Of a DNA stretch of 58,393 nucleotides, positions 21,864 to 49,584 are shown in pieces. Location: contig JAJYTC010000007.1 in assembly GCA_021793275.1 (NCBI GenBank), forward strand, positions 1 to 58,393. Reading direction: 5' to 3'. A program made the position numbers and the translations under genes. Every line of letters begins with the position of its first letter. Position 1 is the stretch's first letter. The notes under the pieces were generated by a model. It was not told the origin of the DNA. It did not search any database and saw nothing but the letters and a program-made list of their open reading frames with translations. The DNA comes from Deltaproteobacteria bacterium. GTDB taxonomy: Bacteria; Desulfobacterota; Syntrophobacteria; Syntrophobacterales; Syntrophobacteraceae.

Positions 21864-21899
21864 GATTTGTTCAGCGCAAAACCACAGGAGACGGCCGGC

Positions 21900-23450: not shown

Positions 23451-23465
23451 GTTTGCGCTGGGGGA

Positions 23466-25028: not shown

Positions 25029-25082
25029 TATCCGGCGGATTCCGGATGGCTGATCGAACAGCATATCCTCCAGGAGCATGAT

Positions 25083-25949
25083 ATGAGTGATAAAGCGGTT
25101 TTGACCTGCGCCCTCACCGGCGTTTTGACCGATCCCTCCATGGCCGATCTTCCGGTCACCCCTGAAGAGATGGCCGAGGCGGCGCGGCAGGCCCGGGACG
25201 AGGGGGCGGTCATAGTCCATGTCCATTTCCGGGATCAAAGACCGGGTAAGGGAATGCTGCCCACCTGGGATGTTGATGTGGTGCGGTCCATTGTGGAGGC
25301 CATCCGTGCCCGCGTACCGGGGATCATCATCAACCAGAGCACAGGCGTAGTGGGGGCGGACATCTCCGGGCCTGTGGCCTGCCTTGAGGCCGTAAAACCG
25401 GAAATGGCCGCTTGCAACGCGGGAACGCTCAACTATCTCAAACAGAAACAAGACGGCGCCTGGGCCTGGCCGCCCATGCTTTTCGACAATCCCGTGGAAA
25501 AAGTCCAGGCCTTCCTGAACGCTATGTCGGCCAACGGAGTCGTTCCGGAGTTCGAATGCTTCGATTCGGGCATTGTTCGCAGCGTGGCCTTATACAAAAA
25601 AGCCGGCATGTTCGAAGGCGACCCTCACATCTCACTGGTCATGGGAGTGGAGAGCGGCCAGCCGGCCAAGCCGGAGTGGATTCCGCTGTTAAAAAAGGAA
25701 ATGCTGCCCGGGACCCACTGGCAGGTTATCTGCGTGGGGCGAAAAGAGGTCTGGGACCTCCAGCGCAAGGCCCTGGAAGAAGGCGGCAACGTGCGCACCG
25801 GCCTGGAAGACACATTCTATTTGCCAAACGGCGAAAAGGCTAGAAACAACGGCCAATTGACAGCGGCCCTGGCCAGAATCGTTCGTGAGACGGGCCGGGA
25901 GGTGGCCACGGCGGAAGAAGCCCGCCGTATTCTGGGAATAACGAGATAA
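25083..25949 (+). CDS. Beta-keto acid cleavage enzyme (BKACE/DUF849, 3-keto-5-aminohexanoate cleavage enzyme family)
   Basis: 288 aa; CALTGVLT, VIVHVHFRDQRPGKG, GIIINQSTG, EFECFDSGIV, GLEDTFYLPNGEKARNNGQLT. Confidence 0.9.
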   Translation: MSDKAVLTCALTGVLTDPSMADLPVTPEEMAEAARQARDEGAVIVHVHFRDQRPGKGMLPTWDVDVVRSIVEAIRARVPGIIINQSTGVVGADISGPVACLEAVKPEMAACNAGTLNYLKQKQDGAWAWPPMLFDNPVEKVQAFLNAMSANGVVPEFECFDSGIVRSVALYKKAGMFEGDPHISLVMGVESGQPAKPEWIPLLKKEMLPGTHWQVICVGRKEVWDLQRKALEEGGNVRTGLEDTFYLPNGEKARNNGQLTAALARIVRETGREVATAEEARRILGITR

Positions 25950-25970
25950 TACGCCAGGGGACCAAAAGCC

Positions 25971-26756
25971 ATGAATGATACGCATGAAGTGCTCTACCAT
26001 CGGCAGGATAAGGTCGCAACGATCACAATCAATCGTCCGCAGAGGCGAAATTCCCTTAATCCGGACGCATTGGAGGGCCTGCACAGGTATTTGGATCAAG
26101 CCGAGAAGGATGCCGAGGCGGGGGCTATCGTTCTCACCGGCGCGGGCGGACATTTTTGCGCCGGAGCGGACCTCGGGGGGAACTTCGGTTCGCAGGAGTC
26201 GTTTCTGGAAATGCATGAGGATCGAGCCCCTTATGCGGAACTGCTGCTTAAGATGAATAAATGCAAAAAACCGATCCTGGCCGCCATCGAAGGCTACTGC
26301 CTGGCCGGAGGTATGGGCCTGTGCCTCGCGAGCGACGTAATTATCGCCGGCGAGGAGGCCCGGTTCGGCCTGCCCGAAATCAAACGGGGACTGTGGCCTT
26401 ACATGGTCACCGCCCTGCTCATACGCAATGTCGGGCGGAAAAAGGCGCTTGAATTGTGCATGACCGGAGAGCTTATTGCTGCGGCCGAAGCCGAACGCAT
26501 CGGCCTGATCAATTACTGCGTCCCTCGGGATTCGTTGGCGGACAGAGTTTCGAGTATGGCAAAAAGGCTGTCTTCCTTCAGTCCGGCGGTGATGGGTCTG
26601 GGCAAGGCGTCCTTTTACCGGATTGCAGATATGACCACAGACGATGCGCTGCATTACCTTCGGGCGCAATTGACGATCAATACGCAGGTCGAAGACCTTA
26701 GGGAAGGCATAGCCGCTTTCATGGAAAAGCGGGACCCGGTTTGGAAAGGGCGCTAG
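25971..26756 (+). CDS. Enoyl-CoA hydratase/isomerase family protein
   Basis: 261 aa; GAGGHFCAGADLGG, AIEGYCLAGGMGLCLASDVIIAGEEARFGLPEIKRGLWP. Confidence 0.92.
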   Translation: MNDTHEVLYHRQDKVATITINRPQRRNSLNPDALEGLHRYLDQAEKDAEAGAIVLTGAGGHFCAGADLGGNFGSQESFLEMHEDRAPYAELLLKMNKCKKPILAAIEGYCLAGGMGLCLASDVIIAGEEARFGLPEIKRGLWPYMVTALLIRNVGRKKALELCMTGELIAAAEAERIGLINYCVPRDSLADRVSSMAKRLSSFSPAVMGLGKASFYRIADMTTDDALHYLRAQLTINTQVEDLREGIAAFMEKRDPVWKGR

Positions 26757-26793
26757 CCGGGCAAATTCAGCTTTAATGGGGAGCATAGCACGC

Positions 26794-27042
26794 ATGAGCA
26801 AAACAGTCGAAGTCAAAGCCCCTATGTCCGGGGTTTTCTATCGCAAGCCGGCCCCGGATCAACCATCTTTTGTGGAGGTGGGCGACACGGTGAAGAAAAA
26901 ACAGGTTTTGGCCCTGCTCGAGACCATGAAGGTATTCCAGAAGGTCAAAGCGCCGGTGGCGGGCAGGATTGTCGAAATTATCGCGGAAAACGAAACACCG
27001 TTGAAAGATGAAGACCTGATGTTTGTCATCGAAATCTGTTGA
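26794..27042 (+). CDS. Biotin/lipoyl attachment domain protein (BCCP)
   Basis: Start MSKTVEVKAPMSG; LLETMKVFQKVKAPVAGRIVEI biotinylation motif. Confidence 0.88.
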   Translation: MSKTVEVKAPMSGVFYRKPAPDQPSFVEVGDTVKKKQVLALLETMKVFQKVKAPVAGRIVEIIAENETPLKDEDLMFVIEIC

Positions 27043-27100
27043 GCGTCATGCGGGGAGAGGAAAATATGCGGCAACATGAAGAGCAGCAGGACGGACGCCG

Positions 27101-28471
27101 ATGTTATCCAAGATATTGATTGCCAATCGGGGCGAGATCGCTCTAAGGGTCGTGCGCGCCGCCAAAGAACTGGGTTTGGCCACTGTGGCCGTCTATTCCG
27201 AAGCCGATAAAGACAGCCTTCATGTGCGTCATGCCGACGAAAGTGTCTGTATCGGTCCGCCCGGCAGCGCCAAAAGTTATTTGAACGGTGAGGCCATCAT
27301 TGCTGCGGCGAGGCAAACGGGGGCGCAGGCGGTTCATCCCGGCTACGGCTATCTGGCGGAAAACGCACGATTTGCTCGGGACTGTATAAACGCCGGCCTG
27401 GTTTTCATAGGCCCGAGGCCGGAAAATCTGGAGCTTGCCGGGAATAAGATCAAGGCCAAAACACTGATCGAGCCGGCCGGCGTGCCGACGGTTCCATCCA
27501 GCCCGGGCCCTGTGCGTTCACCCGGGGAAGCGGTGGCTTTTGCCAAACAAAGAGGTTACCCGGTCATGATCAAAGCCGCAGCCGGCGGGGGCGGCCGAGG
27601 CATCCGCATCTGCCCGGACGAAAACAGCCTGATGGAAGAATTTGCTGTGGCCGGGGCCGAAGTAAAAGCCGCTTTCGGAGACGACGCCTTGTACGTCGAA
27701 AAATGCCTGGTGAACCCGCGACATATCGAATTTCAGATACTGGCCGATGGATTCGGCAACGTGATCCATCTCGGTGAGCGGGAATGCTCGGTGCAAAGGC
27801 GGTTTCAAAAATTGATCGAGGAAGCCCCTTCGCCGGCCCTCGATCCGGGGCTGCGGGCAGCCATGGGGCAGGCAGCCGTCAAGGCGGCGCGGGCCGTGGA
27901 CTACTTCAACGCCGGAACGGTCGAATTTTTGCTCGATCAGGAGGGTAACTTCTATTTCATAGAAATCAATGCCCGCATCCAGGTTGAACACCCGGTAACA
28001 GAGGTGGTCACCGGCGTGGACCTGGTGAAGGAACAGATCAGGCTGGCCGCCGGAGGCCGGCTCGATTACGGTTTCGAAGACCTGAGGCTAAGGGGCTGGG
28101 CTATCGAGTGCCGAATCAACGCCGAGAACCCCGATTTCAACTTCGCGCCTTGTCCCGGGACCGTCGAGGAGTATCGCCCGCCGGGGGGATTTGGCGTGAG
28201 ATTGGACACCCACCTCTACCAGGGCTACGAACTGCCGATTTATTATGATTCGCTGATGGCCAAGCTCATTGCCTACGATACTACCAGATCCGGAGCGATT
28301 CTGGTCTTGCGAAGAGCCCTGCAGGAATTCATTGTCGAACCGATAAAAACTACCATCCCCTTGTATCTGAAAATCCTCGACGATCCCGCATTTCAGAATG
28401 GAGATATCCATACCGGCTACATCAAAAAGTTCGTTCCGGAGGATGAAGACGACGACGATGATGAGGCTTGA
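27101..28471 (+). CDS. Biotin carboxylase subunit
   Basis: 456 aa; MLSKILIANRGEIALRVVRAAKELG, KAAAGGGGRGIRI, EINARIQVEHPVTEVVTGVDLV. Confidence 0.92.
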   Translation: MLSKILIANRGEIALRVVRAAKELGLATVAVYSEADKDSLHVRHADESVCIGPPGSAKSYLNGEAIIAAARQTGAQAVHPGYGYLAENARFARDCINAGLVFIGPRPENLELAGNKIKAKTLIEPAGVPTVPSSPGPVRSPGEAVAFAKQRGYPVMIKAAAGGGGRGIRICPDENSLMEEFAVAGAEVKAAFGDDALYVEKCLVNPRHIEFQILADGFGNVIHLGERECSVQRRFQKLIEEAPSPALDPGLRAAMGQAAVKAARAVDYFNAGTVEFLLDQEGNFYFIEINARIQVEHPVTEVVTGVDLVKEQIRLAAGGRLDYGFEDLRLRGWAIECRINAENPDFNFAPCPGTVEEYRPPGGFGVRLDTHLYQGYELPIYYDSLMAKLIAYDTTRSGAILVLRRALQEFIVEPIKTTIPLYLKILDDPAFQNGDIHTGYIKKFVPEDEDDDDDEA

Positions 28472-28554
28472 GCGCGGGCGGCTACGGGCTGCGCTCGACT
28501 TCACCACCGGAGAAAAGGTCCCAACCTGAACACTTGGATTGATGAGGAGAGAAC

Positions 28555-30141
28555 ATGCTGAGCGATCTGCAAGTGAACCTTATCGGAAGAGTGGCGGTCG
28601 GAGATATTTTTCGCCGCAGAGCCCTGGCAACCCCGAACAAGGAGGCGATAGTAGAGAAAAGAGGTGAAGAGTTCATCAGGCTTACCTTCAAGGAACTCAA
28701 CGACGCCATGAACCGTTTTGCTAGAGCGGCCCGCAGCCTTGGTTTGCAGCAGGGAGACCGGATCGGGCTGCTCGGTCCCAACTCGGTGGAATATCTCATC
28801 GCGCTCTACGGTTGCGCCAAGGGAGGCTTTGTCGCAGTGCCCGTAAACCCCGGACTGTCACCAGGGGGCATACTGTACATCCTGGAGCATGCGGAGGTAA
28901 AAGCCCTCATCGCCGACGACGCACTCCAGCCGATATTCGATGAAATTACTGCGAAAGCCCCTCTGCTGCAACATTGCATCATCATTACCGCTACCCGGCA
29001 ACATGGTCCGGGCGCGCCCTTTATCGACTTTCAAGAGTTTATGCGGGACCAATCGGATGACGAGATCGAAGACGTAATCATAAACGATCGGGATATCTTT
29101 GAAATTCTTTACACCAGCGGCACGACAGCCGATCCCAAGGGGGTAATGGTAACGCATCTGTCCGTTTTTATCATGTCCCTGACGTGCCCTATCGAACTCA
29201 AAATGTCCAGGGACCTTGTGGGAACCACTCTCATGCCGCTCTTTCACTGCGCCCAGCAAACCATTACCACAAGCTATGCCCATATAGGCGCAAAAACGGT
29301 GATCTTCCGAGGCTTCGATCCGACGGTCATGCTGGAGGCGGTGGAAAGAGAAAAGATCGGGATAATCTTCTCTCTTCCGGCCATGTATAGAGCTATGCTC
29401 GATCATCCCCGGCTAAAGGAGTTCGACCTGTCGTCGGCCAAGTGCTGCATCTACGCAATGACCCCCATGGACAAAAGGACCCTGGAGCAGGCCACTAAAG
29501 CTTTTGGCGCCGAATTCGTGCTTGGGACCGGTCAGACCGAATTCTTCCCCGCGTCCAACACCTTTCGCCCCGGGTGGCCGCCAAAGGAGGGCAACTACTG
29601 GGGAGAGTCGGCCGTAACCGTCGATAGCGCCGTCATGGATGAGTCGGGCAGACTGTTACCCAGCGGGCAGACGGGCGAGATCGTCTGGCGCGGTCCGGCC
29701 GTTATGGCCGGTTATCTGAAAAACCGGGAGGCGACGGAGGAGGCTTGCCGGTACGGCTGGCATCATTCGGGCGACATTGGCTATATGGATGAGGACGGTC
29801 TGTTGGTATTTGTAGATAGAAAGAAGGACATGATAAAAACAGGGGGGGAGAATGTATCTTCCCTGAAGGTTGAACGGGTGATTCTAAGTGACCCGCGGGT
29901 TGCGGCGGTTGCGGTAGTGGGGCTGCCTCATGAGCGCTGGGTGGAAGCAGTGACTGCCTTTGTGCAGCCTCGCGACGGCGTGAGCCTTGCGGAAGAGGAT
30001 GTTATCAGTCTGTGCAAGGGCGAACTTGGCAGATTTGAGGTTCCAAAGAAAGTCGTGTTAGTAAATGATTTGCCGCGAACATCGACCGGAAAAATGCAAA
30101 AGCACGTCATCCGTAATATCTATCGGAATCTTTACGCTTAA
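28555..30141 (+). CDS. AMP-dependent acyl-CoA synthetase/ligase
   Basis: 528 aa; LYTSGTTADPKGVMVTH; DRKKDMIKTGGENVSSLKVERVI. Confidence 0.92.
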   Translation: MLSDLQVNLIGRVAVGDIFRRRALATPNKEAIVEKRGEEFIRLTFKELNDAMNRFARAARSLGLQQGDRIGLLGPNSVEYLIALYGCAKGGFVAVPVNPGLSPGGILYILEHAEVKALIADDALQPIFDEITAKAPLLQHCIIITATRQHGPGAPFIDFQEFMRDQSDDEIEDVIINDRDIFEILYTSGTTADPKGVMVTHLSVFIMSLTCPIELKMSRDLVGTTLMPLFHCAQQTITTSYAHIGAKTVIFRGFDPTVMLEAVEREKIGIIFSLPAMYRAMLDHPRLKEFDLSSAKCCIYAMTPMDKRTLEQATKAFGAEFVLGTGQTEFFPASNTFRPGWPPKEGNYWGESAVTVDSAVMDESGRLLPSGQTGEIVWRGPAVMAGYLKNREATEEACRYGWHHSGDIGYMDEDGLLVFVDRKKDMIKTGGENVSSLKVERVILSDPRVAAVAVVGLPHERWVEAVTAFVQPRDGVSLAEEDVISLCKGELGRFEVPKKVVLVNDLPRTSTGKMQKHVIRNIYRNLYA

Positions 30142-30201
30142 CGGGTACCCGCGTTATCCGTTTTTCGCCGGCGCGGAAAGTATCGGAGAAAGGAACCTAC
30201 G

Positions 30202-30972
30202 GTGGTTGGACGCAACATATCGATTAAACATAACGGCGCTGCATGTACGATAGAGATGAACAATCCGGGGAAGATGAACGCCCTCACCGGTGAGGTAATC
30301 GGGGAACTTCAGGCGGCCCTTACGGATATCTCCGCGGACAGGGAAACCAGGGTGGTCGTTCTACAGGGCGCGGGAGGCAATTTTTGTTCGGGCGCCGATC
30401 TCGCTTTTCTTGGTGCGAATTGCACTCCGCAGGATTCTTACCGCGTGATGGAGCGTGTCGGCGGATTGATCAAGTCCATGCGCGAACTTCCTCAGCCCGT
30501 CATATGCAAGGTGCGAGGGGTTGCCTATGGGGGCGGCGCCAACCTGGCCCTGTCCGGCGACTTCGTGATTGCCGCTCATGGGGCCCGGATTTGCGAGGTC
30601 TTTGTCAACGTCGGCCTGACCCTGGATTGTGGAGGGACCTATTTGCTTCCGCGGCTGATCGGCATGATGCAGGCAAGGGCGCTTGCCCTGCTGGGAGAGG
30701 AATTGGACGGGAAAACGGCGGCCGCCATGGGCCTTATTTATAAGTGCTGCCCCGATGAAGAACTCGATAGAGAAGTCGATTCGCTTGCCGCGATCCTGAG
30801 CCGGAAACCCCGTTCGGCCCTGGCGACGATTAAGAAGGGGTTGAACAGGAGCTTCGACATGACACTCGATGAGGCCCTCGACTGGGAAGCCTCCTATCAG
30901 AGCCTGCTGTTGCAGGGGGCGGAACATAAGCAGGCGCTGGCGGCATTGCTGGAGTCGAAAAAGAAAAAGTGA
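30202..30972 (+). CDS. Enoyl-CoA hydratase/isomerase family protein (GTG start)
   Basis: 256 aa; QGAGGNFCSGADLAFLG, CKVRGVAYGGGANLALSGDFVIAAHGARICEVFVNVGL. Confidence 0.9.
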   Translation: MVGRNISIKHNGAACTIEMNNPGKMNALTGEVIGELQAALTDISADRETRVVVLQGAGGNFCSGADLAFLGANCTPQDSYRVMERVGGLIKSMRELPQPVICKVRGVAYGGGANLALSGDFVIAAHGARICEVFVNVGLTLDCGGTYLLPRLIGMMQARALALLGEELDGKTAAAMGLIYKCCPDEELDREVDSLAAILSRKPRSALATIKKGLNRSFDMTLDEALDWEASYQSLLLQGAEHKQALAALLESKKKK

Positions 30973-36347: not shown

Positions 36348-39300
36348 ATGACAGGCAAGGCGTCTAATAAGAGTACGGTCGGTTCGGTCCTGGTTGTCGG
36401 CGGTGGTATCGCCGGAATGCAGGCCTCGCTCGATCTTGCCAATTCCGGTTTTTATGTTTATCTGCTCGAAAAATCGTCTGCCGTCGGCGGAGGAATGTCG
36501 CAGCTCGATAAGACCTTCCCTACAAACGAATGCGCAATGTGAATCATTTCCCCCAAGCTGGTCGAGGTCGGCCGGCATCTCAATATCGAACTTCTGCCGC
36601 TTTCGGAAGTTAAGCAGGTCAGCGGAGTACCCGGAAATTTCACCGTGGAGGTCCTGCAGGAACCCCGCTACGTGGATCCGTCCAGGTGCACCGGCTGCGG
36701 CGAGTGCGCCAAAGTCTGCCCTGTCGAGCGCAAAAATGAATACAATGAGGGTCTGGACGTTCGCCGCGCGGCGTATCGCAAGTACGCCCAGGCGGTTCCA
36801 GGGGCCTATGCCATTGAAAAGCGCGGGACATCGCCGTGCAAAGCCGCCTGCCCGGCCCACATCTCGGTTCAGGGCTATGTGGCCCTGAGCGCACAGGGCA
36901 AATATCGGGAAGCCCTCAAACTGATAAAAGAAGAAAACCCCCTGCCGGCTATCTGCGGTCGCGTTTGCCACCATCCCTGCGAGAGCGCATGCATGCGGGG
37001 CCAGTTTGACGAGCCGGTTGCCATCGATTCGATCAAGCGCTTCCTGGCCGATCTGGATCTTAAGTCCGAAACCAGGTACGTACCCGAAATAAAGGACAAA
37101 CGAGCCGAAAGGGTCGCAATTATAGGTTCGGGTCCGGCAGGTTTGTCCTGTGCTTATTACCTTGCCGCGGAAGGATACCGGGTAACCGTTTTTGAAAAAC
37201 TGCCGGTGCTTGGAGGCATGCTTACCGTCGGCATTCCTTCCTACAGGCTCCCCAAAGACACGATCGAGGCCGAAATCCAGGTCATTAGCGACATGGGCGT
37301 AGAGTTCAAAACAGGGGTCGAGATAGGAAAGGACCTCACTGTCGCCCAACTCAGAGACCAGGGGTACAAGGCCTTCTTCATGGCCATAGGGGCGCAGGAA
37401 TGCAAGGCGCTCGGCATCTCCGGAGAAGACTTCGAAGGGGTTGTTCCCGGCGTCGAATATTTAAGAGACATAAATCTGGGTAAAAAAGTTCCCCTGGGCG
37501 ACCGCGTGGCCGTGATAGGCGGCGGAAATGTCGCGATGGATACGGTGCGAACAGCGCTTCGCAGCGGATCGCGCAAGCCCTTCATCATCTACCGCCGAAG
37601 CGAGGCGGAGATGCCCGCCAACGAAGAAGAGATCCACGAGTGCCGCGAAGAGGGCATCGAGATCATGACCCTTACCAATCCCGTTCGGGTCGTAGGGGAA
37701 AACGGCCGGGTCAAGGCGGTCGAGTGCGTGAAAATGGAACTGGGCGAGCCGGATGCAAGCGGCAGGAGGCGGCCCGTTCCGGTCAAGGGCTCGGAGTTCC
37801 TCATCGAAGTCGATGCGGTCGTTCCGGCAATCGGCCAGGAATCCGACTGGGCGTGTCTTACCGAAGAGTGCGCCTGCCGGCTTACCGACTGGGGCACTAT
37901 GAGCATCGATCCGCTGACCCTTCAGACCCACGATCCCGACATCTTTGCGGGCGGAGACGCCGTTACCGGCCCGAAAACCGTAATTGAAGCCATTGCAGCT
38001 GGCAAGCAGGCGGCGATTTCAATCGGCCGTTTCATTCGCGGTGAGGATTTACGGGCCGGGCGCGAAAGGGAATGGCAGGCGGTCCAGGAAGTGGTGACCG
38101 AAGGCTATGACAGAATCCCGCGGGCCCATATGCCCGTTCTTTCGCCGGAAATCCGCACCTCCAATTTCGATGAAGTCCAGTTGGGATTGAGCGAAGAGCA
38201 GGTGAGGATCGAAGCTGCTCGCTGCCTTAGCTGCGGCATCTGCTCCGAATGCTATCAATGCGTCGATGCCTGCCTTGCAAAGGCCGTCGACCACAGCCAG
38301 CAGGCCAGAACTCTCACATTGAACGTTGGCGCGATCATCGCCTCATCGGGCTTCAAAGCCTTCGATCCCAGCCGGTTCGATACGTACAACTACGCGGGAC
38401 ACCCCAATGTATTGACCGCTCTCGAATTCGAAAGATTTCTGAGCGCGGGCGGCCCCACAAGGGGTCATGTGGTGAGACCCTCCGAGTTGCAGCGCGAGGC
38501 TCGCATCGAGTCGGCCGAAAAGGAACTTGAAAGCCTGCGGGAACAGTCCGGCGCCGAAAATGTCGGGAAGATCGAAAAACTTCGCGCCCAAATAGCCGAA
38601 ATGCGCAAGCTCCAGACGCACGAACCTCCCAAGCGGATCGCCTGGCTCCAGTGCGTCGGGTCTCGAAATGTCAACCAGTGCGATAACGGTTACTGCTCGG
38701 GCGTTTGCTGCATGTATGCAATAAAGGAGGCCGTGATTGCCAGGGAGCACGCCAAGGGCGACCTGGACGCGGCGATCTTTTTCATGGATATGCGCACCTT
38801 CGGCAAGGAGTTCGAGCAGTATTACACGCGTGCCGAAAATAACGGGGTCAGGTTCATTCGGTCGCGTGTGCACTCGGTTCAACCGGTCCCCGGCTCAGAT
38901 AACCTCCAGATCAGTTATGTGACCGAATCCGGGGAAATGAAGGTCGAGGAATTCGATTTGGTCGTCCTTTCGGTAGGCCTTGAATCCTCGCCGGATGCAG
39001 CCGATATTGCCGCAAAGATCGGCTTCGATCTCGATCATTACCGGTTCGCAAAGACTTCGAGCTTTGCCCCGGTCGAGGCCTCCAGTCCAGGAATCTACGT
39101 CTGCGGCGTTTTACAGGGCCCAAAAGACATACCGCTTTCCGTTATGGAGGCTTCGGCAGCCGCAGGCGCTGCCGCGAGCAAACTCGCCGAGGCCAGAAAT
39201 ACGCTTGTCCGGGAAAAGACTTTCCCGCAGGAGCGCGATGTCAGTTCCGAGCCTCTCAGGATCGGCGTATTCGTGTGCAATTGCGGCATCAATATCGGCA

Positions 39301-40928
39301 GTGTCGTCAGGGTGCCCGAAGTTGTCGAGTACGCAAAGACCCTGCCCAACGTCGTCTACGTCCAGGAAAACCTCTTTTCCTGTTCCCAGGACGCACAGGA
39401 CAGGCTCGTTCAGGTGATAAAGGAGCAAAACCTCAACCGCGTGGTCGTCTCCGCCTGTTCGCCCCGCACCCACGAGCCGCTCTTTCAGGAGACGCTGCGA
39501 AACTCGGGTCTCAATAAGTACCTGTTCGAGCAGGCCAATATCCGCGACCAGTGCTCCTGGGTCCATGCAGCCGAACCTGAGGAGGCTACCGCCAAGGCCA
39601 AGGACCTTGTCCGGATGGCGGTTTCCCGAGCGCAACTCATCGAGCCGCTTCCGATGCCTTCGGTCCCCGTTACTCCGGCGGCGCTTGTGATCGGCGGCGG
39701 CGTGGCCGGAATGGTGAGCGCCCTTACCCTTGCCGAACAGGGGTTCGAAGCCTGCATCGTCGAAGCCAAAGAAAAGCTCGGGGGGCAGGCCCTGCATCTC
39801 CACAGGACATGGAAGGGCGAAAACGTCCCCGAATTCGTTTCAGAGCTGGTCCGTAAAGTTGAAAACAACGAAAAGATCAGGGTGTTCCTCAATTCCTCGA
39901 TCAAGCAGACATCCGGCTACATCGGCAATTTCAGGACCACGGTGGCATCGAACGGCCAGGAGAGCGAAATCGCTCATGGCGCAACAATTCTTGCTACCGG
40001 GGCGCAACCGCTGGTCCCTGAGGAGTATCTCTACGGGAAAAACAGCCGTGTTTTCCGGTGGCATGAACTCGACGATGCCCGGGAGACCGACACGGTAAAG
40101 AACGCCCGTAGGGCGGTGTTCATCCAGTGCGTCGGATCGCGGGAAGAAGGCCGGCCGCATTGCAGCAGGATATGCTGCACATTCTCGGTCCAAAAGGCAG
40201 TCGAACTCAAAAAGCGAAACCCGGAAACCGACGTCTACGTAATCTACCGCGACATTCGCACCTACGGCGAACGAGAGGATCTATACAGGGAAGCCCGAAA
40301 GCTCGGCGTGATATTTATCCGCTACGACCTGGAAAATAAGCCCGTGGTCACCGAGACGGCTGAGGGCAAGCTCGAAGTGAGCGTTATCGACCACGTGCTT
40401 AGACGCCCGATTGTCATCAGGCCGGATTTCATCACTCTGGCTACGGCCATTCACACCGAAGGGGCACAGGAATTGGGTCAGCTTTTCAAGGTCCCGCTCA
40501 GCCAGGACAAATTTTTCCTGGAAGTGCATATGAAGCTGCGCCCGGTTGACTTCGCAACGGACGGCATCTTTGTATGCGGTCTTGCCCACTATCCCAAGCC
40601 CATCGATGAGAGCATCGCGCAGGCCCAGGCCGCCGCGGCCCGCGCCGCAACCGTGCTGGCGCGAAAGAGCATCGAGGTCGAAGGGGTGGTGTCGAGCGTG
40701 GACGAGTCGCTTTGCCGGGGTTGCGGCAAATGCGTCGAGGTCTGTCCTTACGGCGCTCCGCACCTGGTTGAAAAAGAGGGAGGCATTCTGGTTTCAAATA
40801 TCCAGGAAGCGCTTTGCAAAGGGTGCGGGGCGTGCGCGGTGGCATGCCCGACCGGCGCTGCCTCCATAAGGCATTTCAATGATCGGGAAGTGCTGGCCAT
40901 GGTCGATGCGGCGCTGACCTGGCAGTAG
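36348..40928 (+). CDS. hdrA: Selenocysteine-containing HdrA-like fusion: HdrA (Sec) / inserted GltD-NfnB-like NAD(P)H module / second HdrA half / 2x[4Fe-4S]
   Basis: ORFs 36348..36542 and 36645..40928 share a frame separated only by TGA 36540..36542; continuous read [33 protein letters not shown]...[12 protein letters not shown]; GltD part [12 protein letters not shown]...[13 protein letters not shown]...[14 protein letters not shown]...[15 protein letters not shown]; HdrA cores WLQCVGSR...CCMYAIKEA and FIQCVGSR...CCTFSVQKA. Confidence 0.9.
36557..36576 (+). promoter_or_regulatory. Candidate bacterial SECIS hairpin for HdrA fusion Sec
   Basis: GCUGGUC-[GAGGUC]-GGCCGGC, 7 bp (with G-U) and hexaloop starting 22 nt past UGA; loop contains GGUC as in the E. 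coli fdhF SECIS loop AGGUCU. Confidence 0.7.
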
Positions 40929-41013
40929 ATAATGTCGATCCGGAAACTTTCCGGTGGGCACGATAAAGCTCACCCCGCTTCGCTCCCCCACTCTGCCTGG
41001 ACTTAACGGTCGG

Positions 41014-41038
41014 GCGGGTTAAGCGAAGCGCAACCCGC
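41014..41038. repeat. REP-like palindrome (GCGGGTTAAGCGAAGCGCAACCCGC)
   Basis: GCGGGTT/AACCCGC stem with inner GCG/CGC; related element at 45877. Confidence 0.65.
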
Positions 41039-41070
41039 ATGGTTCTTTTCGTAATGCAGGCGAGGACCAA

Positions 41071-41490
41071 ATGAGTGCTGACTTCAAGCCGAAGATAATC
41101 GCTTTTTGCTGCAACTGGTGCGCTTACGCAGGCGCGGACCTGGCCGGAGTAAGCCGTATTCAGTACCCGTCCAATATCCGGATCATCCGGGTGATGTGTT
41201 CCGGGCGCGTCTCGCCCGATTTCATCCTCAAGGCGTTCCAAAAAGGGGCCGACGGCGTCCTGGTGAGCGGCTGACACATCGGCGACTGCCGTTACCTGGA
41301 AGGTAACGTAAAGGCTTCGCGAGTGATCGAAATGGTATGGGAGCTTATGGATCTGCTCGGCATCGACCGCAGACGGCTCGAACTCCAATGGGTCTCCTCG
41401 GCTGAAGGCGCCCGCTTTGCCGAAATAGTGACTTCGTTTACCGGCCGCATAATGGAACTCGGGAAATCGTCTCTTGGAGTGGCTGCATGA
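41071..41490 (+). CDS. mvhD: Selenocysteine-containing MvhD-like (methyl-viologen-reducing hydrogenase delta-like) Fe-S subunit 1
   Basis: ORF stops at TGA 41272..41274 inside the conserved motif [65 protein letters not shown]; true stop TGA 41488..41490 overlaps the next ATG. Confidence 0.88.
41290..41308 (+). promoter_or_regulatory. Candidate SECIS hairpin for MvhD-1 Sec
   Basis: CGUUACC-[UGGAA]-GGUAACG, perfect 7-bp stem, loop starts 23 nt past UGA. Confidence 0.7.
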
Positions 41491-42614
41491 ACATAGGCGA
41501 ATCCGTAAACCTTTACAGGGCTTATTACTGCCTCGACTGCGGCGTCTGCACCGGGAGTTGTCCGGTATCGCGGGTGCTGCCGACTTTTTCTCCGCGCCTG
41601 GTTGTGGAAAAGGCCATGCTCGAACTTGGAGACGAACTGCTTGGAGACAGGGACCTTTGGTCCTGCCTCACCTGCGGGCGGTGCTACCAGCGGTGCCCGA
41701 CCAATATCAATTTCCCGGAATTCATGAGAAACCTAAGGGAGGAGGCGGCCAAACGCGGCCTTTCGCCTACGCTTACTCATCACGGCATGCTCCAGTCGGT
41801 GATGGAATTCCAGGCCGCGGGAGTCAGGCAGAAAAAGACCGATTGGGCCAGGGAAGCGGGCAAAATCGCAGACACCGGCGAGGTTTTCTACTTCGTGGGT
41901 TGCATGCCCTATTTCAGCGTAATCTTCCGCGACATCGGCGTCGACAGCCTTTCGATCGGCAGGAGCGTAATAAAAATACTGAACGCGGCCGGCATTACGC
42001 CGGTTGTCTCCGACGAGGAGGCCTGCTGCGGACACGATATGCTCTGGAACGGAAATCCTGAAACGTTCAAAAAGCTCGCGGCGAAAAACATCGAGCTTAT
42101 CCGGAGCAGCGGCGCCAAAAAAGTGGTTTTCAGTTGCCCCGAGGGCTATTACACCTTCAAGCACCACTATCCGCTCTACTTCGGGGAACTGGGCTTCGAA
42201 GCGGTCCATTTCTACGACTACATCGAGAAGATGATCGGCGAGGGCGCGCTCAAACTCTCCGACGGGGCCAGGGCGTATACCTACCACGACCCGTGTCGCC
42301 TCGGGCGCATGGCCAAAATATACGAAAGCCCCCGTGCGATCCTGCACAGCCTTGCAGGGGATCGATTCAGGGAGATGGAGCGAAACCGGGAGAATTCGGT
42401 GTGCTGCGGCACAACCGGTTGGGCCAACTGTTCGAGCTGCTCGAAGCAAATTCAGGCAGAACGTCTGAGGGAAGCCAAGGCCACCGGCGCAAAGACCCTG
42501 GTCACCGCCTGTCCGAAATGCCAGATTCACTTGAGCTGCGCTCTGTCGAGCATGGAAGATATGGACCTTGAGATCAAGGACCTGACCACCCTGATTTCTG
42601 AAAGCATGAGGTGA
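41487..42614 (+). CDS. HdrB/HdrC-like (HdrD-type) fused 4Fe-4S and CCG-domain protein
   Basis: 375 aa; CLDCGVCTGSCPVS, CLTCGRCYQRCPTNINFPEFMRNLR (HdrC), two CCG motifs EEACCGHDM and SVCCGTTGW...CPKCQ (HdrB). Confidence 0.88.
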   Translation: MNIGESVNLYRAYYCLDCGVCTGSCPVSRVLPTFSPRLVVEKAMLELGDELLGDRDLWSCLTCGRCYQRCPTNINFPEFMRNLREEAAKRGLSPTLTHHGMLQSVMEFQAAGVRQKKTDWAREAGKIADTGEVFYFVGCMPYFSVIFRDIGVDSLSIGRSVIKILNAAGITPVVSDEEACCGHDMLWNGNPETFKKLAAKNIELIRSSGAKKVVFSCPEGYYTFKHHYPLYFGELGFEAVHFYDYIEKMIGEGALKLSDGARAYTYHDPCRLGRMAKIYESPRAILHSLAGDRFREMERNRENSVCCGTTGWANCSSCSKQIQAERLREAKATGAKTLVTACPKCQIHLSCALSSMEDMDLEIKDLTTLISESMR

Positions 42615-42617
42615 AAA

Positions 42618-44153
42618 GTGAACAAAGACGTACTGGTCATCGGCGGAGGGATCGCCGGAATTCAGGCGGCCCTGGACCTTGCGGAAATGGGAATCCAGGT
42701 GCACATGGTGGAAAGGCTCCCGAGCATTGGCGGGAAAATGGCCCAGTTGGACAAGACTTTCCCGACCAACGACTGCGCGATTTGAATTCTTTCGCCCAAG
42801 CTGCTGGATGTCGGTCGGCATCCTAAAATAAATCTTCTGGCCTACAGCGAAATCGAGGGAATCGGCGGGCAGGCCGGCAATTTCAAAATCAGCGTGAGGA
42901 AAAAGGCGCGCTACGTAAACGAAGATCTTTGCACCGGCTGCGGATCGTGCGCCGAGAAATGCCCTACGCCGGCCGTGGACACATTCAATACCGGGATAGG
43001 TCAGCGCAAGGCCATATACAAGTATTTCGCCCAGGGCATCCCGTCCGTTTTCACCATCGACGCACCCAGTTGCCGCCAGCTCGGGCAGGGCAAGAAGTGC
43101 GGCGTATGCGCGAAGACCTGCCAGGCAAAGGCAATTGATTTCGAGCAAAAAGACAGGATGGTCGAAATCGAAGCCGGAGCGATCGTTATGGCTACAGGCT
43201 ATGACGTTTTCGACCCGTCGGTTATCCCTGAATATGGCTACGGGCGGATTAAAAACGTCGTGACCGCCCTTGAGTTCGAGCGGCTCCTTAGCGCGTCCGG
43301 CCCAACCGCCGGCCACCTCGACCGTCCGTCCGAGCTTACCCTGGAAAAAGAGATCGAGGAGACCGGAAAAGAGGTCAGGAAGCTTTCCGCGCGTATAAAA
43401 CAGCTCGAGGAAAAACAGGGCAAAACATCGGATGAAGTTATAAGCCAGGTAAAGGCGGGCGCATCCGACGAACCGCTTGTAGAGTGGGCGAAGCAGGCCG
43501 AATCGCTCGCGGAGATGCAAGCGGCACTTGCGGCCATGAACAGGAAAATGGCCGCGGCCACAACCGCCAAAAAGCTCGCTTTCATCCAGTGCGTCGGATC
43601 GCGCGATTTCCGGTTCAACCGGTATTGCTCCTCCTACTGCTGCATGCACTCGGTAAAGGAGGCGATGATCGCCAACGAGCATGACAGGGAAGTCCATTCT
43701 TCCATATTCTGCATGGATCTACGCGCGGTAGGCCGAGGCTTCGAGGAATACAAACTGAGGGGTGGTCAGCAGGCAAATATCGAATATATTCGCGGCCGTG
43801 TGGCCGAGATCACCGAAGACGAAGCCAAAAACCCTGTTGTCTGGTTCGAATCGACGACCGAACGGCACGTGAAGAGCGAGGTCTTCGATATGGTGGTCCT
43901 TGCCGCGGCCTGCGTTCCGAGCGCGGGGACAGCGAGGCTCGCGCAGCTTGCGGGAGTTGAACTGGATACCAACGGCTTCGTCAAAACCGACCCCCTCATG
44001 CCGCTCGCAACGACCAGACCGGGGATTTTCGTCTGCGGGTGCGCGCAGGGGCCGATGGATATCCCGGAATCGGTGGCCCAGGCCAGCAGCGCGGCGGCCT
44101 GCGCCGCCGAGGCGGTTATCGGCGCGCAGATAACGCTTAAGGCGACTGCTTGA
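42618..44153 (+). CDS. hdrA: Selenocysteine-containing HdrA-like protein, N-terminal half (GTG start)
   Basis: In-frame TGA 42783..42785: [75 protein letters not shown]... joins ORF 42894..44153 ([40 protein letters not shown]). Confidence 0.88.
42800..42819 (+). promoter_or_regulatory. Candidate SECIS hairpin for HdrA-2 Sec
   Basis: GCUGCUG-[GAUGU]-CGG(U)CGGC, 7 pairs with one bulged U; loop starts 22 nt past UGA; homologous position to the hairpin at 36557. Confidence 0.5.
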
Positions 44154-44172
44154 CTCTCTAAGAGGTGCTCAA

Positions 44173-45852
44173 TTGGCAGAACAAATCCGAATAGGAGTTT
44201 TTGTTTGCAACTGCGGCAGCAACATCGCCGGCTATCTGGATGTGAAGGCGCTGGCGGAGTATGCTAAAATCCTGCCCCACGTCGTTTTTGTAAGGGAAAA
44301 CCTTTACACCTGCTCGGAAAACGGCATAAACGAAATCAAGGCCGCAATCAAGGAGCAGGGCCTCAACCGCGTGGTTGTGGCATCCTGCACGCCTCGCACC
44401 CATGAGCCGCTTTTCCGGGGGACCTGCGCCGAAGCCGGGCTCAACCCCTACCTCTTCGAAATGGTCAACATCCGCGACCAGTGTTCGTGGGTCCATATGC
44501 AGGAAAAGGAAAAGGGCACCACCAAGGCGAAAGACCTGATTCGGATGGGTGTTGCGAAGGCCGCCCTGCTCAAGCCTCAGGAGCCTATCCAGTCGGAAAT
44601 GGACCCGAGGGCGCTGGTCATTGGCGGAGGGATCGCCGGCATGACGGCGGCCATGGCGCTTGGAAACCGGGGCTATGAAGTCACCTTGATCGAAAAATCA
44701 GGCGAACTCGGCGGTCTTCTGCTAAAACTCGACAAGCTAGCGCCTTCGGGGGCGGACGCGGTTGCGGTGGCGCGAAAACAGGCAGATCTTGTCCGCAGGC
44801 ACCCCAATATCCACCTGCTCCTGTCCACTCACATAGATGAGGTCAACGGGTATATCGGTCATTTTCAGGTCTCGGCTTCGACAAACGGCTCCAAAACACA
44901 GTTTGGAACAGGCGTTATCGTAGTGGCCACAGGGGCGCGTGTTTTTCGGCCGGCCGGATTGTACGGCTATGACGGCGAGAAGGTCATCACGCAGCTCGAA
45001 CTCGAAGAGGTTTTCAAGTCCGGGGCTTTCGCTGCGAAAAACGTCGTCATGATTCAATGTGTGGGCGCGCGCAATGACGAGCGAAAGTACTGCTCGCGCA
45101 TATGCTGCATGGTCGCGATAAAGAACGCCATAGAAATAAAGGAAAAGAGCCCCGAAACAGGAGTAAAGGTCCTCTACCGCGACATCCAGGCTTACGGGAC
45201 CGAGAACGAAGCCCTTTTGCAGCGCGCGAAGGAGCTTGGCGTGATCTTCATAAAATACGATCCCGCCCGCCCGCCCAGGGTCGAAGCTGGAAAGGTGATC
45301 GTCCATCACGATCTGCTCGGGCGCGAAATAGAGCTGCCGCAGGATTTGGTGGTCCTTTCAACGCCGCTAGTAGCCGGCGAGGACAATGAAGCCATATCGA
45401 AGCTTCTGCGGGTGTCGCTTGACGCAAACAAGTTCTTCCTGGAAGGACACGTGAAGCTGAAGCCGCTCGACTTTGCAACCGACGGCATTTACCTGTGCGG
45501 AAACGCCCACTATCCGGCTACCGTGCGTGAAGCGGTGTCGCAGGCGCTGGGCGCTGCCTCGCGCGCTTCCATACCGCTGTCCAAGGGGGTGATGTCGGTC
45601 GAGCCGATAGTCTCTACTCTCGTGGATGAAGATGCGTGCCGGGGCTGCGGGCTTTGCGTCGCGCTTTGTCCCTACGGGGCACTCGAGATCGTGCGCGGCG
45701 AGAAGGGGCGAAAAGTCAGAGTGATCCCTGTAGCATGCAAGGGCTGCGGGATCTGCGCGGCAACCTGCTATCATCACGCTCTGAGCGTCAATTCCTACTC
45801 GGATGCGCAAATAGGCGAACAGATAAGAGCGTTTCTGGAAGAATCGGCCTGA
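44173..45852 (+). CDS. hdrA: HdrA-like protein, second half, with C-terminal 2x[4Fe-4S]
   Basis: 559 aa; [114 protein letters not shown]. Confidence 0.9.
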   Translation: MAEQIRIGVFVCNCGSNIAGYLDVKALAEYAKILPHVVFVRENLYTCSENGINEIKAAIKEQGLNRVVVASCTPRTHEPLFRGTCAEAGLNPYLFEMVNIRDQCSWVHMQEKEKGTTKAKDLIRMGVAKAALLKPQEPIQSEMDPRALVIGGGIAGMTAAMALGNRGYEVTLIEKSGELGGLLLKLDKLAPSGADAVAVARKQADLVRRHPNIHLLLSTHIDEVNGYIGHFQVSASTNGSKTQFGTGVIVVATGARVFRPAGLYGYDGEKVITQLELEEVFKSGAFAAKNVVMIQCVGARNDERKYCSRICCMVAIKNAIEIKEKSPETGVKVLYRDIQAYGTENEALLQRAKELGVIFIKYDPARPPRVEAGKVIVHHDLLGREIELPQDLVVLSTPLVAGEDNEAISKLLRVSLDANKFFLEGHVKLKPLDFATDGIYLCGNAHYPATVREAVSQALGAASRASIPLSKGVMSVEPIVSTLVDEDACRGCGLCVALCPYGALEIVRGEKGRKVRVIPVACKGCGICAATCYHHALSVNSYSDAQIGEQIRAFLEESA

Positions 45853-45876
45853 GGAAAGAAGGCAAAAGAACTGTAG

Positions 45877-45898
45877 GGTGGGTTAAGCGCGACCCGCC
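45877..45898. repeat. REP-like palindrome (GGTGGGTTAAGCGCGACCCGCC)
   Basis: 8-bp imperfect stem; shares GGGTTAAGCG core with 41014..41038; likewise directly upstream of an mvhD gene. Confidence 0.6.
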
Positions 45899-45923
45899 GG
45901 AACTTTTCCAAGGAGGGCAATGG

Positions 45924-46712
45924 ATGCCTGAGTTTACTCCCAAAATTCTGGTGATGTGCTGCACCTGGTGAGGCTACGCGGCGGCTGACTTCGCTGGAGT
46001 TTCCAGGATGCAATATACGACGGATGTGCGGTTGATCCGTCTCATGTGTACAGGCCGGGTGGATCCGACCATGGTGGCCGAGGCTTTCATCGAGGGAGCG
46101 GACGGAATCATGGTGGTCGGCTGCCATTTCGGTGACTGCCATTACATTTCCGGCAATTACCAGGCCAGGGTAAAGATGGGGCTCGCATCGAGGGCCCTGG
46201 GCTACGTTGGCCTCAATGCCGCTCGGGTCGCCTTCAAACAGTGCTCGTCGGCGGAGGGCGACCGGTTTGTAAGCCATGTAACCACTTTCCATGACAGTAT
46301 CTGTGAAATCGGCCCTCTCGGTTCGGCTGAAAAGCTTCCGCTGCCGAAGCTTAAAGACAGGGTCGATACGGCCCGTGCCGCCCTTGCCTCCGAAAAGCTG
46401 CGCTGGGTGGAGGGCAAATTCACCGAATTCCAAAACAACGGCAACAAGTACGGCGAAAAATTCACCGAACACGAAATGTGGCGCACCCTCGACACGATCG
46501 TAATCGATGAAATCGCAACCCATGGAATTTTAAAAGAAATGCGAAAAGGCGCCGCTTCGGTCATAGAGCTTGCCGAAAGGCTGGAAATAGCCCCGCCTGC
46601 CGCACTCAAGTACGTCCTGGCCCTTCAAAGGCGCGGCCTGGTGGGACTTGCCGGCGTGGACGGCGCGACTCCGAGCTACAGGCTCGTGGAGCGTCCGGCC
46701 AAAGCAGCGTGA
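45924..46712 (+). CDS. mvhD: Selenocysteine-containing MvhD-like protein 2 with C-terminal winged-helix-like extension
   Basis: MPEFTPKILVMCCTW-U-GYAAADFAGVSRMQYTTDVRLIRLMCTGRVDP...GCHFGDCHYISGN; TGA 45969..45971 in frame with ORF 46008..46712; C-terminus ASVIELAERLEIAPPAALKYVLALQRRGLVGL. Confidence 0.88.
45994..46006 (+). promoter_or_regulatory. Candidate SECIS hairpin for MvhD-2 Sec
   Basis: CUGG(A)-GUU-(U)CCAG, 4-5 bp stem, loop ~27 nt past UGA; the weakest of the four. Confidence 0.4.
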
Positions 46713-46799
46713 GGTCCGGAAGATAGTGGGCAGAAACTTTTCTTAACAGTAACTCACGTTCACATCGGGACACGCGGAAACCGCCCAGCGAGGAGTTGG

Positions 46800-48479
46800 A
46801 TGCAAGTGTCAGATAAACAGGTGATCATTTTCGGAGGCGACCCGGCAGGGATTGCGGCTGCTATCGAACAGGCGGAAGCGGGCCGGCGCGTGGTGCTGGT
46901 CGAAACTTCACCGGCCCTCGGCGCCGGGCGCATTCCCCAGACCCATCTTCTAAACGGGAATTCGACGTGGGCCGATCCGAACTTTGAGGCGGCCAAAAAG
47001 CATCCGAACATACGCATAATCACCAACGCCGTCGTGGAAAAAGCTTCCGCCAAAGACGGGTCGTACACGTTCCGCATCCGGCGAAAAACGGGCCGGGTGG
47101 ACCCCGAAAAATGCGACGGCTGCCGCGAGTGCATTCGCGTATGCCCGATCAATATGTACGATGACTTCAACGAAGGCATCGGTTTTAGAACGGCCATAGA
47201 TTTCTTCAACCCCGATACCGGCGATTTCAACATTTTCAGGGAGGATATGCCGGTTTGCCAGGCCACCTGCCCTGCCAACCTCGATATCCGTTCCTATGTC
47301 GGCAACATTGCCGACGGCGAATACGCCAAATCGCTGGCCATAATAAGGCAAAACCTGCCTTTTCCACTGGCCATCGGCCGCGTCTGCCCGCATCCCTGTG
47401 AGTCCGCCTGCAACCGGGGATACATGGATGAGCCGATTTCCATCTGCACTTTGAAGCGCTTCGTGGCCGATTACGAGATGAAAAACGGGCTGACGGCCCC
47501 GGTCGAAATTCCCGACGAGTTCCACCGGGAAAAAGTCGCCATTATCGGCGCCGGGCCTGCCGGTCTATCCTGCGCCTATTTTCTCGGAAGGGCCGGGTAC
47601 CACTCTGTTGTCTTCGAAGCCCTGGCCGAACCGGGTGGAATGTTTCGCTACGGCATTCCCGAATACAGGCTTCCCACCCCTACTCTCATGCACGAGATAA
47701 ACTGGATTCTTTCCCACGGGGCTGAGCTTCGCTGCAATACGAGGATCGGCAGGGACATTTCTTACGAAGAGATCGTCAAGCAGTTTGACGCTGTTTTTAT
47801 CGGCGTAGGGGCGCACAAGGGAATGAAGCTCCAGATCAAGGGCGAGGATATGGAAGGCGTTGTCGACGGGGTCGATTTCCTGCGCGAGGTAAACGGCGGC
47901 AAAAAATGGCCGGCAAAAGGCAAGGTCATAGTGGTTGGCGGCGGAAACGTCGCCATGGACGCAGCTCGGGTCAGTTGGCGGGAAGGCTTCGAGGAGGTCC
48001 ATGTCCTCTATAGGAGGACGAAAAAGGAGATGCCCGCCAGTCCGTGGGAAATCGACGCGGCGGAACAGGAAGGCGTAAAATTCCAATACTTGGTAGCGCC
48101 CATCGAGGTTGTCGGAAACAACGGCAAAATGACCGGCCTCAAATGCCTCAGGATGGCGCTGGGCGAAGCCGACGCCAGCGGAAGGCGCAGGCCCGTACCC
48201 ATCGAAGGCTCGGAATTCATCGCGGAAGCCGAGACCCTGATTCCCGCGATCGGTCAGGCGCCGGACCTCGGTTTCGTCCCGGATGACGGCAGGCTCAATA
48301 TTTCCAGGCGTAACACCTTTGTTGTCGATAAGAGCAATTATATGACCAACGTCGAAGGCATCTTCTCGGCGGGCGACGTCGAAACCGGGCCGGACATCGC
48401 TATTCGAGCCTGCGCAGGCGGCCGCAAAGCCGCCGAAGGCATAGTGCGCTACCTGGAGGCCAGACGGGCGAAGGGGTAA
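46800..48479 (+). CDS. HdrA-like/NfnB-GltD-like NAD(P)H-binding oxidoreductase lacking the HdrA Cys/Sec motif
   Basis: 559 aa; N-terminal [120 protein letters not shown]. Confidence 0.9.
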   Translation: MQVSDKQVIIFGGDPAGIAAAIEQAEAGRRVVLVETSPALGAGRIPQTHLLNGNSTWADPNFEAAKKHPNIRIITNAVVEKASAKDGSYTFRIRRKTGRVDPEKCDGCRECIRVCPINMYDDFNEGIGFRTAIDFFNPDTGDFNIFREDMPVCQATCPANLDIRSYVGNIADGEYAKSLAIIRQNLPFPLAIGRVCPHPCESACNRGYMDEPISICTLKRFVADYEMKNGLTAPVEIPDEFHREKVAIIGAGPAGLSCAYFLGRAGYHSVVFEALAEPGGMFRYGIPEYRLPTPTLMHEINWILSHGAELRCNTRIGRDISYEEIVKQFDAVFIGVGAHKGMKLQIKGEDMEGVVDGVDFLREVNGGKKWPAKGKVIVVGGGNVAMDAARVSWREGFEEVHVLYRRTKKEMPASPWEIDAAEQEGVKFQYLVAPIEVVGNNGKMTGLKCLRMALGEADASGRRRPVPIEGSEFIAEAETLIPAIGQAPDLGFVPDDGRLNISRRNTFVVDKSNYMTNVEGIFSAGDVETGPDIAIRACAGGRKAAEGIVRYLEARRAKG

Positions 48480-48560
48480 AGCTCCGAAAGGAGGTAAGTC
48501 AGATACCTCCGGCAAAGCCGGTGGCCGGTGTCTTTTGCTCGTGGAAGACAATGAACGTGG

Positions 48561-48587
48561 ATTCCGGCTCAGAGGCGCCGCCGGAAT
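48561..48587. repeat. REP/dRS3-like inverted repeat ATTCCGGC-N11-GCCGGAAT
   Basis: Perfect 8-bp arms in intergenic DNA. Confidence 0.55.
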
Positions 48588-48714
48588 GACGACTTGATAG
48601 CTTGTCCCTTTCAGGGAGAATTGAACCACCTTGACGGAAAAATCCAGGCCACGGGTTGGCACAAGTTTTATCGTGCCCAAAGTTTCCTGATGGAAGCGAA
48701 TTACGGGGAAGCAG

Positions 48715-49584
48715 ATGCAATACGAAAACAAAGGCCGTTTCATAGTAAAATTCACCGATATTCCATCCCCGCGCCAGCACCATATTGAAATCGAAGTGGA
48801 TGAGCGCAGGAACAATTACAGCGAGGTGGAACTTGGTTTCGACGAGGAACGGGCCGCAAGAGAAGCCAAAAGGTGCCTGAGCTGCCGCCGCTGTCTGGGG
48901 TGCGCCCTGTGCTGGGCCGAGTGCAAGCCCGAAGCAATTCAATTCGATTTGCAGGACGAAATAATCGAAATCGAAGCCGATTCCGTCATCATCTCGCCGG
49001 GGGGCGAACGCGCGCTCAACCGCATCGACAGTCGCTTCGGCCTGGCCAAGGACGTCAACGTCGTAACGGACCTCCAGCTCGAACGCATGCTCAGCGAATC
49101 GGGCCCGAGCGGTGGGCTGGTGATCCGGCCGTTCGACGGCCAAATCCCTTCGAGCGTCGCCTTTGTCCAGGCCTATGACGGGGCTGCGTCCGCCATGAAC
49201 CGGTCGGCCCTGACCTTCGCTGTGAACGAGGTTACTCTTCTCAGGCAAAAGCTGCCGAAGGCAGAAATTGCCGTCTTTGGCGGTTTTGAAGATTTTTCCG
49301 AGGGCAAAAGCGCACTCGATTCCGCCGGCGCTACGCTTATCGCCGCCCCGGTTCAATCCGTCACGCCGAACGGCGGCTCGCCCGTAAAAGTGGCCTTCGC
49401 AGATGCACAGGCCAAGGAGTTCGATCTGGTCGTTCTCATTACGCAGCCGGTAATGTCCAACGATGCCCGCGACCTCGCAAAGGCCCTCGGCCTGGACATC
49501 TCGTATGCGAATTTTCTCTCCGGCGAAGGAGACGGCCTCATTCAGACGAACAAAGAAGAAGTGCGGCTGGCGCGGCAGGAGTGA
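48715..49584 (+). CDS. HdrA-fragment-like Fe-S protein
   Basis: 289 aa; EEERAAREAKRCLSCRRCLGCALCWAECKPEAIQFDLQDEIIEIEADSVIISPGGERALNRI; resembles the HdrA-fusion segment following its GltD insert. Confidence 0.75.
   Translation: MQYENKGRFIVKFTDIPSPRQHHIEIEVDERRNNYSEVELGFDEERAAREAKRCLSCRRCLGCALCWAECKPEAIQFDLQDEIIEIEADSVIISPGGERALNRIDSRFGLAKDVNVVTDLQLERMLSESGPSGGLVIRPFDGQIPSSVAFVQAYDGAASAMNRSALTFAVNEVTLLRQKLPKAEIAVFGGFEDFSEGKSALDSAGATLIAAPVQSVTPNGGSPVKVAFADAQAKEFDLVVLITQPVMSNDARDLAKALGLDISYANFLSGEGDGLIQTNKEEVRLARQE

Follow-up and report, generated by a model that had tools for sequence, protein, structure and literature searches.

The window analysed here, a stretch of 58,393 nucleotides from an uncultured deltaproteobacterium of the family Syntrophobacteraceae, carries at positions 36348–46712 a set of Hdr/Mvh genes, four of which contain a single in-frame TGA codon. 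Very probably, these four encode selenoproteins and belong to a single operon-like module for a soluble HdrA-type flavin electron-transfer complex, either bifurcating or confurcating. This confidence refers to the reading as a selenocysteine (Sec) module; that all products join in one bifurcating complex has, taken alone, about even chances. We base the selenoprotein assignment on the Sec machinery of the host genome, the exchange of Sec and Cys in homologues and hairpins resembling the selenocysteine insertion sequence (SECIS) downstream of the UGAs. The genes and codons concerned are:

36348..40928, forward strand: hdrL, HdrA-NfnB-HdrA fusion of 1526 amino acids with Sec at residue 65 (translation; both ends map onto 5odc HdrA)
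36540..36542, forward strand: UGA(Sec) of hdrL, equivalent to HdrA Cys197 (aligns with TFPTNDCSI-C-ILAPKM of 5odc_A)
41071..41490, forward strand: mvhD1 (PF02662), Sec at residue 68, Cys pattern CCCUC, stop TGA (family match and homologue alignment)
41272..41274, forward strand: UGA(Sec) of mvhD1 (VSG-U-HIGDC; the solved MvhD has Cys there)
41487..42614, forward strand: hdrBC, fused HdrC-HdrB with CCG domains, without Sec (PF02754 and Fer4 matches)
42618..44153, forward strand: hdrA2, HdrA without N-terminal Fe-S domain, GTG start, Sec at residue 56 (alignment to 5odc_A from residue 144 onward)
42783..42785, forward strand: UGA(Sec) of hdrA2, equivalent to HdrA Cys197 (alignment to solved HdrA including 9sfi_A)
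44173..45852, forward strand: hdrA3, HdrA with N-terminal Fe-S domain, without Cys194/Cys197 equivalents and without Sec (alignment to 5odc_A residues 2–233)
45924..46712, forward strand: mvhD2, MvhD with a C-terminal winged-helix-like extension, Sec at residue 16, pattern CUCCC (family match and homologue alignment)
45969..45971, forward strand: UGA(Sec) of mvhD2 (CCTW-U-GYAA; the solved MvhD has Cys there)

In each of the four genes the in-frame TGA occurs exactly once and at a redox Cys column, with homology resuming in the same frame; the initial annotation was correct in placing the interruptions at 36540, 41272, 42783 and 45969. Downstream of each UGA, substitutions relative to relatives of 87–94% identity fall mostly at third codon positions (e.g., 0.053/0.038/0.227 for the three codon positions of HdrL past its UGA), which argues that the frame is translated. 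The host genome is a fragmented metagenome-assembled genome (MAG; 4.65 Mb, 278 contigs, 97.08% complete, contamination 4.47%), and such material could raise suspicion of assembly or sequencing errors, or of decaying pseudogenes. This explanation is, however, refuted by TGA at identical codons in independently assembled relatives, for example in an HdrL orthologue of 92% identity (locus L151), and the third-position bias and the single TGA per gene at a Cys column likewise make it exceedingly improbable. An annotation treating UGA solely as a stop would cut all four genes.

A changed code, with UGA read throughout the genome as another residue, e.g., Trp or Cys, would also leave UGA open within the four genes. 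Yet TGA genuinely terminates mvhD1 (41488), hdrBC (42612), hdrA2 (44151) and mvhD2 (46710), as originally noted, and genome-wide recoding is thus out; only hdrL among the Sec genes ends differently, with TAG (40926). Moreover, homologues replace the residue at the four sites by Cys and never by Trp, and the genome holds a true tRNA-Sec, so that a changed code can be given next to no credence and the local UGA-to-Sec recoding proposed earlier stands.

The search for selA, selB, selC and selD suggested at the outset yielded a tRNA-Sec with anticodon TCA as well as complete selA (618 bits) and selD (379 bits), both over cut-off; selD carries an in-frame UGA of its own (RAAG-U-AAKIGPG). For selB, the C-terminal winged-helix end (PF09107) was found at the edge of contig C90, and full selB scored over the curated cut-off in 11/11 relatives searched. 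A lack of selABCD or tRNA-Sec, named at the outset as grounds for refutation, is thereby ruled out, with selB cut by the end of its contig. Further selB matches on contigs C166, C226 and C235 turned out to be EF-Tu fragments and were rejected, leaving C90 as the sole SelB match. The host genome is selenoprotein-rich: family searches returned 19 MvhD-family matches, eight of them with in-frame TGA, and six HdrA places with in-frame TGA, in addition to selD. A second Hdr/Mvh cluster of the same genome (contig C275:40544-48823) features Sec in one MvhD (CCCUC) and one HdrA.

The expectation that Cys homologues align at each U is likewise borne out. MvhD and HdrA homologues with a single internal TGA are common in 56 genomes of the same class, and at all four sites the homologues have either TGA or a Cys codon (TGC/TGT); at the HdrA site, a tally limited to these three codons gave 121 distinct TGA and 18 distinct Cys sequences. 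Scanning named genomes with HdrBC as anchor delivered 80 loci, including those of Syntrophobacteraceae MAGs, Desulfoferrobacter suflitae DRH4, Desulforhabdus sp. TSK and many Desulfobacterales, and the relatives keep the gene order hdrA or hdrL, mvhD, hdrBC, hdrA, hdrA', mvhD. The upstream HdrA stands at the equal place either with the NfnB insert (about 1500 amino acids) or without it (about 1000–1125 amino acids). Sec is encoded at all four sites in 21 of the 24 named loci in which every site is readable, D. suflitae DRH4 and Desulforhabdus sp. TSK among them. The exceptions are a locus with Cys in the first HdrA (L173), one with CCCUC in the second mvhD slot and hence Sec at the other position (L201), and one of a Chloroflexota MAG with Cys at all four sites (L216). 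Thermoplasmata and Methanomassiliicoccales MAG loci have Cys at each readable site. Density and arrangement of the Sec genes, initially regarded as unusual, are therefore typical of these loci: judged from the compared sequences, the four-selenoprotein Hdr module is conserved across Syntrophobacteria and Desulfobacterales, which makes a whole Hdr module with four selenoproteins a conserved lineage feature rather than a curiosity. Many of the relatives that share it are sulfate reducers or syntrophs.

Hairpin loops lie about 23–28 nt 3' of each UGA, and SelB with Sec-tRNA would read each internal UGA with the aid of such a hairpin. The individual elements are:

36557..36576, forward strand: SECIS-like hairpin of hdrL, 8 bp, loop AGGU (equalled by 3/200 and 5/200 codon-column shuffles; single-sequence z −1.87)
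41290..41308, forward strand: SECIS-like hairpin of mvhD1, conserved 6-bp core, GGA loop (codon-column shuffle test)
42806..42823, forward strand: SECIS-like hairpin of hdrA2, 7 bp (reached by 1/200 codon-column shuffles; 16 orthologues)
45994..46006, forward strand: weak candidate SECIS-like hairpin of mvhD2, CUGGA-GUU-UCCAG (reached by 15/200 codon-column shuffles)

Hairpin conservation holds for three of the four UGAs, namely those of hdrL, mvhD1 and hdrA2. The mvhD1 stem is conserved across 40 Sec sequences, its energy was reached by 0/100 codon-column shuffles, and 82 Cys homologues gave no consensus stem. The stems of HdrL and HdrA2 are clade-specific, and the evidence for them comes from a clade-wise consensus test. 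A scan of the window against Rfam at gathering thresholds gave no match, and single-sequence folds are modest overall (z −1.87 to −0.17).

Several points weigh against the assignment as a Sec module. In this MAG the contig ends within selB and leaves the GTPase part of the gene unseen. The hairpin of MvhD2 is weak, and the single-sequence fold of its 48-nt stretch (z −0.17) has a lowest-energy structure that differs from the candidate. Pooled Sec homologues of HdrA fold equally strongly upstream of the UGA, which served as control, and downstream of it; as this folding is non-specific, it was left out of the hairpin evidence. Finally, Sec incorporation and production of the proteins are predictions from the genes.

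In both HdrA proteins with Sec, this residue falls on the column of the second Cys in the DCxxC-ILxPK motif of solved HdrA, i.e., residue 197 of 5odc_A as counted along the alignment. The N-terminal Fe-S cluster of one HdrA is described as being ligated by Cys197 of its partner HdrA, and tandem or fused HdrA proteins are known in which the N-terminal domain and Cys197 have been lost in a complementary manner (PMC9012536). Two such complementary arrangements are present in the module. HdrA2 has Sec and lacks the N-terminal Fe-S domain, whereas HdrA3 has the domain and lacks the Cys197 equivalent. In HdrL, the N-terminal half has Sec without the Fe-S domain, and the C-terminal half begins with that domain. 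The initial annotation of two HdrA and two MvhD genes with Sec holds for Sec in all four, but its first gene is no plain hdrA: readthrough of the UGA gives a single, larger HdrA-NfnB-HdrA protein with an NfnB/GltD-like insert at about residues 160–570 and flanking ends matching methanogen HdrA. Given its HdrA sequence, the NAD(P)H-binding GltD/NfnB insert and the adjoining mvhD, it is of the HdrL type.

The computations show Sec coding, conservation of the module and complementarity of the domains; how the complex may form, where Sec could ligate a cluster, in which direction electrons might flow and which substrates would be used is what we infer. Within HdrL, an NfnB NAD(P)H domain would be flanked by two HdrA halves that complement each other, and HdrA2 would complement HdrA3 in the same manner as a further pair. 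Since the Sec half lacks the N-terminal Fe-S domain and its partner half has the domain without Cys197, Sec is expected to complete the Fe-S cluster across the halves. In MvhD-HdrABC, electrons pass via the [2Fe-2S] cluster of MvhD to the HdrA flavin and are split there between HdrBC and ferredoxin (PMC6019823). An analogous flow could be envisaged for the present module, with MvhD1 and MvhD2 feeding electrons into the HdrA units via their [2Fe-2S] cluster, the NfnB domain bringing in NAD(P)H as one of the partners and HdrBC acting on a putative thiol/disulfide partner. Flavin-based bifurcation is here a prediction from homology to HdrA. Alternatively, the Sec proteins could be real and the module nevertheless comprise two or more separate Hdr/MvhD enzymes in a shared operon, as HdrL by itself and the HdrA2/HdrA3 pair by itself both look sufficient for a complete HdrA unit and the genome holds many further HdrA and MvhD paralogues. 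Against such a division speaks that relatives from two large groups keep the gene order fixed, with just one hdrBC separating the halves; we regard the division as a serious though less favoured option.

Both MvhD proteins score over the family cut-off (FlpD, PF02662) and have five conserved Cys/Sec positions, and the rule within the module is CCCUC in the first MvhD and CUCCC in the second. Among the non-redundant sequences of the fetched loci, CCCUC occurs 70, CCCCC 45, CUCCC 39 and CSCCC two times, and two U never occur together. As read from these sequences, MvhD1 and MvhD2 hold Sec at different conserved Cys positions and never at both in one protein; a review mentions archaeal VhuD with more than one Sec (PMC13188914). 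The eight UGA-bearing MvhD copies of the host genome are split evenly between the two patterns (4 + 4). A rapid tree of 159 MvhD domains, built from few columns and with many forks unresolved, requires 9 changes among the three states compared with a shuffled mean of 71.7, which suggests that the Sec position is an inherited trait with several origins. In addition, Ser is found at the second conserved Cys (CSCCC) in loci of Zixibacteria and Dehalococcoidales (L212, L217) and Asp at this position in two MvhD paralogues of the host genome (L115, L116), so that this position is not strictly Cys/Sec.

A clean prediction emerges for both families, i.e., Sec at the Cys197 trans-ligand of HdrA and, in each MvhD, a single Sec placed at either of two fixed positions. 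A more far-reaching proposal is that the HdrA Sec serves as natural selenium ligand completing an Fe-S cluster across heterodimer halves near the bifurcating flavin and, at the same time, that the module was selected to split Sec between two alternative MvhD positions, thereby tuning two electron entries; we consider this combination speculative and rather unlikely. In the solved HdrA 9sfi_A, a non-standard residue X stands at the Cys197-equivalent position, which is consistent with a modelled Sec, and the structural question may thus already be answered for a relative. The searchable literature yielded no report of an Fe-S cluster with a natural Sec ligand.

Sec-HdrA, Sec-MvhD and the HdrL fusion were already published in 2006 and 2009 (PMC1794560; PMC2702500). 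According to the portion of the Desulfobacterium autotrophicum HRM2 report available to us, its HdrL proteins are HdrA/NfnB (glutamate-synthase-type) fusions of the selenoprotein type, each followed by mvhD, as in the present module, and at one locus a tandem of hdrL and hdrA is accompanied by HdrB/HdrC-like genes (PMC2702500). That portion of the text does not lay out the exact order hdrL-mvhD-hdrBC-hdrA-hdrA'-mvhD with four Sec (PMC2702500). Syntrophobacter fumaroxidans shares the Sec-HdrA and Sec-FrhD (MvhD) families; its published operon, however, has frhG, frhA and glpC, whereas the present module is without an adjoining hydrogenase subunit gene (PMC1794560). A four-selenoprotein operon of other make-up (frhA, frhD, hdrA, glpC) appears in a 2026 review (PMC13188914). 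HdrA and MvhD of the methanogen HdrABC-MvhADG complex (PDB 5odc) are clear homologues of the present proteins, and the HdrA fusions of anaerobic methanotrophic archaea resemble them in that HdrA occurs fused or in tandem, with Cys197 and the N-terminal domain distributed in a complementary manner (PMC9012536). In contrast to both archaeal systems, the present module has Sec in place of Cys, an NfnB domain in HdrL, no adjoining MvhAG and a bacterial host. In the searchable literature, which leaves most subscription papers outside, no paper was found describing the exact module or the split of the Sec position between its two MvhDs.

The block originally delimited as 36348–46712 does contain the four Sec genes, but the cluster continues to about 49584 as a split HdrL-like pair that is kept in relatives:

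46800..48479, forward strand: HdrA_N-NfnB protein that lacks both Sec and a Cys197 equivalent, part one of a split HdrL-like pair (domain matches; adjacent orthologues in L089, L094, L095 and L096)
48715..49584, forward strand: HdrA C-terminal part without Sec, second part of the pair (NF040770 positions 284–512; 83% orthologue in L089)

The span 36348–49584 thus comprises eight Hdr/Mvh/NfnB genes; the hydrogenase subunit genes mvhA and mvhG are absent from it, which sets the cluster apart from an H2-dependent MvhADG-HdrABC. The C-terminal extension of MvhD2 (window 46329–46709) shows weak winged-helix (helix-turn-helix) matches and is kept in orthologues; MvhD is here fused to a DNA-binding-like domain. 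An acyl-CoA catabolic gene cluster (20688–30972) precedes the Hdr module in the window, with genes for an acyl-CoA dehydrogenase, a beta-keto acid cleavage enzyme, enoyl-CoA hydratases and a biotin carboxylase as well as two carboxyltransferase genes.

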